From positions 1 to 35,100 of the IMG/VR virus record IMGVR_UViG_3300021142_000092: DNA of 35,100 nt, one strand, 5' to 3'. The stretch comes from a virus. The notes under the pieces were generated by a model. It saw only the letters and a list, made by a program, of their open reading frames with translations, made no database searches and had not been told where the DNA came from. Shown here in pieces: positions 1 to 27,990 of this stretch. Position 1 is the stretch's first letter. Each line of letters opens with the position of its first letter. Both the position numbers and the translations under genes were made by a program.

Positions 1-760
1 ATGCTTTTCCTTTTTTTGGTAATCCTTCTTCTTTAGCGATTACACTAGATGCTATACCCAATGCGCCAGCACCGGCAGCAATACCAACACCTAAACTTGC
101 TAATGAACTACCTGCACCTCCACCAGTAGCTGAACGACCTGCTCCGCCACCTTTTGATACTCTATTCGCTGAAGATTTTGGTGAAGACGTTCTTTCACCT
201 GATTGTTTTTTAGGTGCAGACTTTCTTGCAGAACTTTTTGGTGATGACTTTCGAGTTTTAGAACCTTTTTTACTTGGTTCTTCTGGTTCTTCTGGTTCTC
301 CACCTTCAGGTTTACCTCTGTACTTTAATGCTTTGATTAACTTATTGTGCCAATCATCTTCATCTTTTTCTAAATCTTTTTGTTGGCTTTTAAGTTCTTC
401 TTTGTGTTTGACCAATTCTTCTCGGTCTTCTTTCATCACTTTGAAGATTGAATTTAAAATTTCAGAAGCTGTATCACCACCTTCTTTTTTTAAACTCTTG
501 CCATCACCAGCAAAGTATTCTATGTCTTCTTGTTTTCTGCCAAGTAGTTTACCGGTTGCTGCAGCAAGGCCTTTGCCACCAATACCTTTTGCAATGTTCA
601 TAGGGTCAAAGGTCTCTTTTAGACCGACCATTGACGCCTTTGTTTTATCTGATATGGTACTCTTTATAGACGAGCCAACACCGCCACCAGATGTTATCTT
701 ATCTGCTAGCGTATTTGAGAACGATTTCTTTCTTGCCGCTTTCGCCTGTTTGTAGTCCAT
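1..760 (-). CDS. Large tail protein at tape-measure position, N-terminal 253 aa (cut by window edge); probable start of lysozyme domain
   Basis: I translated this by hand. ATG is at 760-758 and the frame stays open to base 1, so the C-terminus lies outside the window. The order is: a basic N-terminus (MDYKQAKAARKKSF); a Gly/Lys/Ser region; a charged helical stretch at about residues 105-150 (KEDREELVKHKEEL) that looks like coiled coil; a Pro/Glu run followed by a Ser/Lys-rich linker (about 155-215); a Gly/Ala hydrophobic segment (about 217-242) that could cross a membrane; then AKEEGLPKKGKA at the edge. That last string resembles the start of T4-type lysozymes, where a catalytic Glu precedes G-L and K-A-Y. 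The gene follows gp26/gp51, the place where the tape measure sits in T4 and in many tail operons. It could therefore be a tape measure carrying a lysozyme, or a separate tail lysozyme. The gene is certain; the function is inferred. Confidence 0.7.
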   Translation of the reverse strand, partial: MDYKQAKAARKKSFSNTLADKITSGGGVGSSIKSTISDKTKASMVGLKETFDPMNIAKGIGGKGLAAATGKLLGRKQEDIEYFAGDGKSLKKEGGDTASEILNSIFKVMKEDREELVKHKEELKSQQKDLEKDEDDWHNKLIKALKYRGKPEGGEPEEPEEPSKKGSKTRKSSPKSSARKSAPKKQSGERTSSPKSSANRVSKGGGAGRSATGGGAGSSLASLGVGIAAGAGALGIASSVIAKEEGLPKKGKA

Positions 761-955
761 TTATCGTTTTCTTTGTTGCTCTTTTATCTTTTGATTTTCT
801 TCTTCAATATATTGAATCAACATAGTAACGTAAATGTCCCTTTCCCAAGGTAACATGTTCTCAAGTTCAGTAAGACTATACTTATGGTGTTGCATCAAAC
901 TAAAGTTAGTCTTATAATAATTACCTAAATTATCATGACGAAAGCTTAGCCGAAA
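761..955 (-). CDS. gp51: gp51-like tail assembly chaperone domain, expressed as -1 frameshift extension of gp26
   Basis: This open frame, absent from ATG-based gene calls, starts in the -1 frame at the end of gp26 and runs 63 codons from CGG at 952 to TAA at 763-761. It reads RLSFRHDNLGNYYKTNFSLM, then QHHKYSLTELENMLPWERDI, and ends in a charged helix (IEEENQKIKEQQRKR). Its composition is clearly coding. It has no start codon at its beginning; the first in-frame ATG (895-893) has no Shine-Dalgarno and would drop the first 19 residues. The natural reading is a gp26-gp51 fusion of about 303 aa (240 + 63). In T4, gene 51, a hub assembly factor, directly follows gene 26, and many tail operons make their two tail chaperones by -1 frameshifting before the tape-measure gene. 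Function rests on position and this analogy. Confidence 0.75.
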   Translation of the reverse strand, partial: FRLSFRHDNLGNYYKTNFSLMQHHKYSLTELENMLPWERDIYVTMLIQYIEEENQKIKEQQRKR

Positions 956-1671
956 AAATTTTCAAGGCCTTCAACATTCAAGTGGTGTTGAAATCCACAC
1001 TTCTTACATTTTAAATCAATTTTTTGTCTAATTTTAGGTAAATTGTCAAAGAATTTTTCAATCTTATCAAACTGTTCTTGACTCAAATTTTCAATGAATT
1101 CAACCATTTCGTCCAGTCCAACTTCATTTGCATAATAGAACTGGTCACCATCATAAACATATTCAACAGATTGTGCAATGATATTGAATGTTAATTTGTT
1201 GATGTCATCATACTTAGAAGCTTCTGTTAAAAAAGAAAACTCTGGATATTTCATTTTAACAACAAACTTGCCAGATAATTGAATTTCAGGATCAATTTTT
1301 TCATCCTGTTCAATTCCAATCTTAGTCAAATCAACATCAGTTTGCATAATGTTACCACAAGTTTTACCGTCAACCTCATTATTGCAACGGTATCTTGCAT
1401 CAACAATTTCACCAACGGATTTAGACCTCAAGTTGATAAGAAAATATTCAACATCAACGATAGGTAGATGTTCAATCTCAATTCCAGGTGTCAATGTACA
1501 ATTGTATAGAATTGTAGCAATTGCTTGCTGTATTGTTTCACTATCATCCGCTTCCATTGCCATCAAAAGATTTCTTTGTTCTTTGACAGTAAATGGTCTA
1601 AATTTTATTTTCTTCTTGGTTAAAGGTAAAACCAAGTCATATGTTGGCACATCAAGTTTTGGCAAAGCCAT
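946..1671 (-). CDS. gp26: T4 gp26-like baseplate hub assembly protein / tail assembly chaperone
   Basis: This 241-aa protein is slightly longer than T4 gp26 (208 aa). It starts MALPKLDVPTYDLVLPLTKK and has the gp26-family layout: an N-terminal segment with KFRPFTVKEQRNLLMAM, a helical middle, and two paired-cysteine sites, C96/C105 (RYRCNNEVDGKTCGN) and C222/C225 (LKCKKCGFQHH). Together these could bind one zinc ion. The start is well supported, with GGAGG about 9 nt upstream of ATG 1671. The last codons form a slippery run leading into the -1 frame gp51-like ORF, so two products are expected: gp26 and gp26-gp51. In T4, gp26 is needed for hub formation. Its neighbours are the tube protein upstream and the tape-measure-position protein downstream. 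The family call is good; the zinc site is inferred from residue spacing. Confidence 0.8.
   Translation of the reverse strand: MALPKLDVPTYDLVLPLTKKKIKFRPFTVKEQRNLLMAMEADDSETIQQAIATILYNCTLTPGIEIEHLPIVDVEYFLINLRSKSVGEIVDARYRCNNEVDGKTCGNIMQTDVDLTKIGIEQDEKIDPEIQLSGKFVVKMKYPEFSFLTEASKYDDINKLTFNIIAQSVEYVYDGDQFYYANEVGLDEMVEFIENLSQEQFDKIEKFFDNLPKIRQKIDLKCKKCGFQHHLNVEGLENFFG
952..961 (-). promoter_or_regulatory. Tandem -1 frameshift slippery site at the end of gp26
   Basis: On the minus strand the last gp26 codons are GAA AAT TTT TTC GGC TAA. They contain two overlapping heptamers of X XXY YYZ form in the gp26 frame: A AAT TTT (961-955) and T TTT TTC (958-952). Slippage at either gives the same product, ...ENFF followed by RLSF. 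A GAAGG about 5 nt upstream could act as an internal Shine-Dalgarno stimulator, though that spacing is shorter than in dnaX. I see no strong stem-loop downstream. Confidence 0.65.
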
Positions 1672-26859: not shown

Positions 26860-27990
26860 ATGAGATTTCATATATTAGGATTGCCACATACTGTTTCTTC
26901 AAAAGAATACAATGCATGTGCATATACACAGAAGGTCGTTAAGTTTGGTAAAATGATGACTGCTCGTGGCCACGAAGTAATACATTACGGCCACGAGGAT
27001 TCCGACCTAGTCTGTACAGAACATGTAACAGTTACCACTAATAAAGATTTAGAAATTGCATATGGTAACTATGATTGGCGTAAAAATTTCTATAAGTATG
27101 ATGTTAATGACCACGCCTATCAGACATTTTATAAAAATGCGACAATAGAACTGTACGATAGAAAACAAAAGAACGATTTCATTCTACCTTTTTGGGGTTC
27201 AGGTGTTAAACCAATTTGTGATGCACATTCAGATTTGATTTGTGTGGAACCTGGTATCGGTTATGCAGGTGGACATTGGGCAAGATGGAAAATCTTTGAA
27301 TCTTATGCAATTTATCATGCATACTACGGACTTGACGCTGTAGGCACATGCAAACAAGACTGGTATGATGCAGTTATTCCTAACTATTTTGATCCAGATG
27401 ACTTCACATTCAACGATAAGAAGGAAGATTACTTTCTATTCTTAGGTCGTGTTTATGACGGCAAAGGCATACATGTTGCGGAACAGGTAGTGAAAGAAAT
27501 TGGTGGCAAGTTGATTATTGCTGGTCAAAATCCAGACAATCTTCAGTTTGGTGACCATGTTGAGTTCTTTGGTTATGCGGATGTTGAACAAAGAAGAAAG
27601 TTAATGGCAAATGCCAAGGCTGCATTTGTTCCGTCAATGTATACCGAACCTTTTGGTGGTGTGCAAATGGAGATGTTATTCTCTGGAACACCCACAATTA
27701 CAACAGACTGGGGTTCATTCGCTGAAAATAATCTACACGGATATACCGGTTACCGTTGCAGAACCTTTGAACAGTTTGTTTGGGCTGCAAAAAACGTTGA
27801 TAAGATTGATCCACATAACTGCCGCAAGTGGGCAGAGAACTTTACACTAGATAAAGTTGGTCAAATGTATGAAGAATATTTCCAATCTGTGCTGAATGTA
27901 TATACAAATAAAGGTTGGTATGAGAAAAATGATGACAGAATGAACTTGGATTGGTTAAAAAAAGAGTATCCGCAAATACTAAATAGTTAA
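26860..27990 (+). CDS. GT4-family (GT-B fold) glycosyltransferase
   Basis: This 376-aa protein has the GT-B layout. The N-terminal half has a mobile substrate-side domain (AYTQKVVKFGKMMTARGHEV). The donor domain begins at about 192 with YFLFLGRVYDGKGIHVAEQV and continues with GGKLIIAGQNPDN, VEFFGYADVEQRRKLMANAK and SMYTEPFGGVQMEMLFSGTP. E263 and E271 form the E-x7-E motif that binds nucleotide sugar in retaining GT4 enzymes. No signal peptide or membrane helix is visible, so it acts in the cytoplasm. It sits between two fibre genes on the same strand, with GGAG before the start. It may glycosylate fibres or other virion proteins, or alter a host surface precursor; sugar donor and acceptor cannot be told from sequence. 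Confidence 0.85.
   Translation: MRFHILGLPHTVSSKEYNACAYTQKVVKFGKMMTARGHEVIHYGHEDSDLVCTEHVTVTTNKDLEIAYGNYDWRKNFYKYDVNDHAYQTFYKNATIELYDRKQKNDFILPFWGSGVKPICDAHSDLICVEPGIGYAGGHWARWKIFESYAIYHAYYGLDAVGTCKQDWYDAVIPNYFDPDDFTFNDKKEDYFLFLGRVYDGKGIHVAEQVVKEIGGKLIIAGQNPDNLQFGDHVEFFGYADVEQRRKLMANAKAAFVPSMYTEPFGGVQMEMLFSGTPTITTDWGSFAENNLHGYTGYRCRTFEQFVWAAKNVDKIDPHNCRKWAENFTLDKVGQMYEEYFQSVLNVYTNKGWYEKNDDRMNLDWLKKEYPQILNS

Follow-up and report, generated by a model that had tools for sequence, protein, structure and literature searches.

A gp26/gp51-type phage locus that very probably encodes two forms of a tail assembly chaperone through −1 ribosomal frameshifting

Introduction

How a phage expresses a reading frame that opens at the very end of another gene and has no usable start codon of its own is the question raised by the gp26 locus of the virus studied here. 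The DNA analysed, called the window throughout, is the whole stretch of 35,100 nucleotides formed by positions 1 to 35,100 of IMG/VR virus record IMGVR_UViG_3300021142_000092. Frameshifting in the tail chaperone genes of phages is textbook knowledge, and the G and GT proteins of lambda, the subject of work by Levin in 1993 and by Xu, Hendrix and Duda in 2004, are reportedly a short and a long form made from one gene by a −1 frameshift. The initial annotation of the locus had proposed that the T4-type pair gp26 and gp51 is expressed in this lambda-like mode. We report here on the anatomy of the locus, its conservation among related phages and its relation to T4 genes 26 and 51.

Results

Anatomy of the locus

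The features of the locus, all on the minus strand, are collected in Table 1. The sequence claimed for the end of gp26 is indeed present, as are two overlapping slippery heptamers at the junction, of which only T TTT TTC is conserved; slippage at A AAT TTT or at T TTT TTC leads to the identical product, ENFF-RLSF. The −1 frame was also rightly described as open for 63 codons without a usable start, since its first in-frame starts, TTG/ATG at 898-893, lie 50-53 nt past the gp26 stop, within the conserved domain (LMQHHKYS) and without a Shine-Dalgarno sequence. After dinucleotide shuffling, the 63-codon frame stayed open in 0.18% of cases. A locus from a different contig (L001), the gp26 of which is 99.6% identical, has the same layout of gp26 and −1 frame, indicating that the layout is not a sequencing error.

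Table 1. Coordinates in the window of the features of the gp26/gp51-type locus
Feature	Coordinates	Strand	Remark
gp26, putative short form of the tail assembly chaperone (zero frame)	1671..946	minus	241 aa
gp26 3′ end	GAA (963-961), AAT (960-958), TTT (957-955), TTC (954-952), GGC (951-949), TAA (948-946)	minus
Conserved slippery heptamer T TTT TTC	958-952	minus	in phase; 105/109 loci
Second, overlapping heptamer A AAT TTT	961-955	minus	in phase; not generally conserved
Zero-frame stop TAA	948-946	minus	end of the putative short form
−1 frame segment, putative gp51-type C-terminal domain of the long form	761..952	minus	63 codons + stop
Stop of the −1 frame, TAA	763-761	minus	adjoins next ATG (760)
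Weak Shine-Dalgarno-like GAAGGC upstream of the slip site	967..972	minus	candidate stimulator
Next gene	2..760	minus	ATG right behind the −1 frame stop; runs off the window

Profile searches assigned gp26 to the Pfam family T4_baseplate (PF12322, E 1.9e-59) and to PHROG 150 (E 5.7e-63), and the −1 segment to PHROG 634, 'baseplate hub assembly catalyst' (E 3.1e-30). The −1 segment also matches columns 232-276 of the PHROG 150 profile, directly after the columns matched by gp26, and this one family thus covers both segments contiguously. A tblastn search with the −1 frame matched 571 phage records at E up to 1; in the best 30 of the 571 records, identity to cyanophage and pelagiphage gp51 over the first 45 residues is 66-76% and every alignment starts at residue 1 or 2; for cyanophage gp51 alone, the identity is 70-76%. 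The identity of gp26 to phage records is at most 38.5%, showing that conservation is higher in the shifted segment. Comparison of the window with 13 relatives gave a pN of 0.09-0.20 and a pS of 0.56-1.06 for the −1 frame, with the differences concentrated at third codon positions; the frame is under strong purifying selection. The claim that it is coding from its first residue is borne out by the conservation, which begins there, by the PHROG 634 match and by a pN far below pS. The gp26 segment itself contains two spaced cysteine pairs, CNNEVDGKTC and CKKC, which resemble a split zinc ribbon, the CKKC pair standing a short distance before the slip site.

Conservation of the slip site

Related loci were collected through similarity to gp26, through similarity to the −1 domain and from annotated phages, the slip site being no criterion, and those with a readable gp26 end numbered 109. 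The run T TTT TTN was found in phase within the last gp26 codons of 105 of these 109 loci, which are kin by descent, so that the counts are not independent. Its last base is C in 80 loci, T in 16, A in eight and G in one, and it usually stands 10 nt before the gp26 stop. An intact in-phase run is missing from T4, Acinetobacter phage Maestro, Ackermannvirus PhaxI and L057; in the last of these the gp26 frame breaks higher up, yet GAA AGT TTT TTC stands at the right place, making it a 106th locus. The overlapping A AAT TTT was found in 17 of 95 dereplicated loci.

The codon preceding the run is AGT, GAT, AAT, TCT or GCT, that is, always NNT while the residue is Ser, Asp, Asn or Ala, implying a constraint on the DNA rather than on the protein, in a test that is partly circular because it was computed on loci retained on condition that they had the run. 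Nearly all loci show a −1 frame conserved from the slip site onwards; the collection ranges over Kyanoviridae, pelagiphages, Caulobacter phage Cr30, Rhizobium phage RHph_I46, Vibrio phage D525 and, among the Straboviridae, Ah1 and LPCS28. In Aeromonas phage Ah1 (L026) and Cronobacter phage LPCS28 (L030), the frameshifted domain lies in the unannotated interval between gp26 and the next gene. The alignment of homologous gp26 3′ ends that the initial annotation had suggested as a check thus shows the heptamer to be widely retained and the downstream frame to be conserved from its first residue. Taken together, these sequence comparisons indicate that the frameshift signal is real, is shared by at least 100 related phages and belongs to a known type of gene trick.

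Some Ackermannviridae depart from this pattern. In PhaxI (L028), ECML-4 (L112) and K751 (L113), a C-terminal domain (GYSIFEIS..MPWHLD) can be recognised in the −1 frame that follows gp26 and that lacks an early start, and the junction, of the Kuttervirus/Taipeivirus type, reads GAR ATT TTC ATT TAA TTTTTG, with no canonical heptamer. Acinetobacter phage nACB2 (L114) has T TTT TTT.

Candidate stimulatory elements

The region upstream of the slip site was analysed in the 95 dereplicated loci (below 85% identity) by scoring 8-nt windows against the 16S anti-Shine-Dalgarno sequence. Windows that start between 18 and 11 nt ahead of the heptamer showed strong complementarity; the mean energy was −6.4 kcal/mol for the best offset and −1.0 overall. 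The best local energy averaged −6.50, compared with −4.93 (SD 0.14) for synonymous shuffles, and it beat 40 of 40 shuffle means. Codon choice in the region is shifted accordingly: GAG makes up 54% of Glu codons (21% elsewhere) and GGG 19% of Gly codons (4% elsewhere). In 26 loci, GGAGG and the heptamer are exactly 10 nt apart. Loci with the double heptamer showed no clear link to the strength of the Shine-Dalgarno-like element (mean −5.9 against −6.6 kcal/mol). Downstream, the folds of 60-nt windows just behind the site are more stable in relatives than in synonymous resamplings (z −1.45, SEM 0.19), whereas control windows further on gave a z near 0; a P-SSM2-like subgroup has an 11-bp stem that begins 5 nt behind the heptamer.

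Both stimulators of the relatives are weak or absent in the phage studied here. Where relatives have GAGGGA or GGAGG, it has GAAGGC, and the element of its clade amounts to AAGG only (−3.3 kcal/mol in L001, the sequence of which is identical here). A consensus RNA structure was sought in the phage's own clade and not found, and the downstream folding of L001 gave a z of about −0.1. The slip run is therefore the one part of the signal shown to be present in this phage. Stimulators are not required at every known frameshift site, and the slip site alone, without strong stimulators, can act. Text searches found no paper describing the Shine-Dalgarno-like element or the stem in these phages; both may be new for the group, a negative text search being weak evidence.

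Relation to T4 gp26 and gp51

A profile built from virtual −1 fusions was aligned to gp26 and gp51 of T4 and Maestro. T4 gp51 aligned in one frame across the virtual joint (domain 5.9e-16), as did Maestro gp51, whereas the gp26 proteins of both phages aligned only to the short part, up to the joint. The T4 gp51 is thus not the counterpart of the −1 frame alone, as had been assumed, but matches the whole long form, and T4 gp26 matches the short form, suggesting that T4 has hard-wired the two forms as paralogues. The description of T4 genes 26 and 51 as separate and adjacent holds, but the two are transcribed divergently; the counterpart genes of Maestro, Ursula and Gravdalen are divergent neighbours as well. 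Judged by these alignments, T4-type phages have two paralogous genes for the forms that the wider group would obtain by frameshifting, which would be a clear example of a gene pair taking the place of recoding.

The cyanophage gp51 has about a fifth of the length of T4 gp51 and lacks its first ~200 residues (PMC3037559), a size that would be explained if the small protein is the C-terminal part of a frameshifted chaperone. The T4 particle does not contain gp51, although its assembly requires the protein (PMC3004832).

Structure models and neighbouring genes

The AlphaFold2 model of gp26 has a pLDDT of 87. Superposition of residues 1-88 with VIA-align gave as its top two chains YqbN 3KLU (Z 7.5, rmsd 3.9, 86 aligned) and the HK97 tail assembly chaperone 2OB9 (Z 7.3, rmsd 4.2, 84 aligned). 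In Foldseek, HK97 had the highest listed probability (0.57) with E-values that are not significant. With Z below 8, the model is suggestive of a tail assembly chaperone fold for the N-terminal domain. The C-terminal domain was modelled as three helices (pLDDT 82) and had no Foldseek match in the PDB, and the profiles of the two proteins found no solved relatives by sequence. A short and a long form that share their N-terminal part are predicted from the anatomy of the locus and are paralleled by the T4 paralogue pair.

A tape-measure gene, expected directly downstream in the initial annotation, is not plainly there: the counterpart of the next gene, full length in L001, has a product of 513 aa that contains a Phage_lysozyme domain (PF00959, 5.6e-13). 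The annotation of Cr30 places a tape-measure gene two genes beyond gp51. L001 carries two consecutive downstream genes, L001:2948-4489 and L001:4482-5759, the first of which begins in the window at 2-760. They share an N-terminal module (SDTIADKI..GIGxSI..TLSDKAKA..FDPxNIAKGIGG), with the lysozyme domain in the first, and look like duplicated hub or tape-measure-like proteins. Elsewhere in the window, a glycosyltransferase group 1 gene (PF00534) lies at 26860-27990 amid tail and structural genes.

Discussion

Our reading of the locus is that gp26 and the 63-codon frame very probably constitute one tail (baseplate hub) assembly chaperone gene with two forms made by −1 frameshifting. The frameshift is supported by the anatomy of the locus, its conservation, selection on the coding sequence, a phase-locked heptamer, the lack of an alternative start and the fusion seen in T4 gp51. 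The lambda-like mode of expression proposed for the T4-type pair is likewise supported, by the 105 of 109 heptamers and by a conserved −1 frame that has no start. Most ribosomes would terminate at the zero-frame TAA and yield the 241-aa short form, while a minority would slip back one base, with two Phe tRNAs on U UUU UUC or at the overlapping A AAU UUU, and continue in the −1 frame to yield a long form of ~303 residues that carries the small helical C-terminal domain. In lambda, binding of the tape measure falls to the short form and recruitment of the tail tube to the long form, as reviewed in PMC5009743. From the sequence features we infer the slippage itself, and by analogy with lambda G/GT the roles of the two forms, which together may load or shape the central component of the tail and depart before virion completion.

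Could gp51 instead be a separate protein, produced by reinitiation or translational coupling past the gp26 stop? The P-SSM2 and S-PM2 records annotate it from an ATG just past that stop, and several cyanophage loci have an ATG 2-5 nt beyond it, where reinitiation is possible. However, the phage studied here offers no start until 50 nt beyond the stop, and that one falls within the conserved domain and lacks a Shine-Dalgarno sequence; an independent gp51 start was set aside on these grounds. Moreover, the conserved stretch starts right at the slip site in almost every locus, the spacing of the upstream Shine-Dalgarno-like element suits that site and not a start codon, and T4 gp51 contains gp26-type sequence joined in one frame; a separate gp51 would also leave the phase-locked T TTT TTN unexplained. 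A separate gp51 is therefore very unlikely.

Slightly less probable still is transcriptional slippage on the T run, which would join the two segments in one frame. Every frameshift-type locus has a run of 6 to 8 T at the junction, but most have 6, compared with runs of 9 for slippage by bacterial RNA polymerase (PMC5009743). The codon phase, which a polymerase would not need, is conserved, and both a Shine-Dalgarno-like element at fixed spacing and a 3′ stem at a distance of 5 nt point to the ribosome. As for a chance open frame, or an assembly error that split one gene, 63 codons are indeed short; against this stand the near-identical locus with the same layout on another contig, the recurrence of the heptamer across the collected loci, the purifying selection and the low frequency of open frames among the shuffles. 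The comparison of loci refutes this explanation, to which we give practically no weight.

Ribosomal frameshifting thus being preferred, the small gp51 genes of cyanophages, pelagiphages and this phage are indicated to be the end of a frameshifted chaperone and not free proteins, and gene callers mis-annotate the gp26/gp51 locus in many genomes. The expectation that callers miss the second frame entirely holds in part: the frame is unannotated in Ah1 and LPCS28, but many cyanophages carry an annotated small gp51, given as a separate protein with a start chosen downstream of the conserved region. For the wider T4-like group, we lean slightly towards the view that the gp26/gp51 junction is a selected three-part recoding signal of the dnaX type, the parts of which trade off between lineages; the phage studied here would have kept the slip run and little of the stimulators, and T4 would have abolished the signal by means of a long-form paralogue.

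The tail chaperones of T4-like phages are said to be the subject of a 2022 study by Vladimirov, Gautam and Davidson. The PRFect paper gives an account of that study which agrees with the two-paralogue view of T4 (PMC10274946), and a 2025 paper attributes poly-T slippery sites to the TAC-N genes of T4-like phages (PMC12846349). Judged by these two accounts, tail chaperone frameshifting in T4-like phages has already been described.

Among known systems, lambda G/GT shares with this locus a short and a long form, a −1 shift near the end of the first frame and a place in a tail operon, the likeness being one of layout and expression mode. The slip site of lambda is G GGA AAG and that of the phage studied here U UUU UUC; further differences are its contractile-tail T4-type gene set and a neighbour that is a lysozyme-domain protein and not a proven tape measure. 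The layout of E. coli dnaX, with a Shine-Dalgarno-like element ~10 nt upstream, a heptamer and a stem ~5 nt downstream, is found in the relatives, whereas this phage has weak or missing flanking stimulators and a U run in place of A AAA AAG; unlike in dnaX, the longer product here would be the shifted one. The T4 hub assembly chaperones (PHROG 150) are homologues, gp26 of the short form and gp51 of the whole long form, but are encoded by two separate divergent genes with no slip site, compared with one locus with a slip site in this phage. The TAC locus of Pseudomonas phage Adele (Vandenendeviridae) belongs to another phage family and is likened by layout and motif: its −1 frame is open past the TAC-N stop, as here, and it has a conserved poly-T motif, GTTTTT (PMC12846349).
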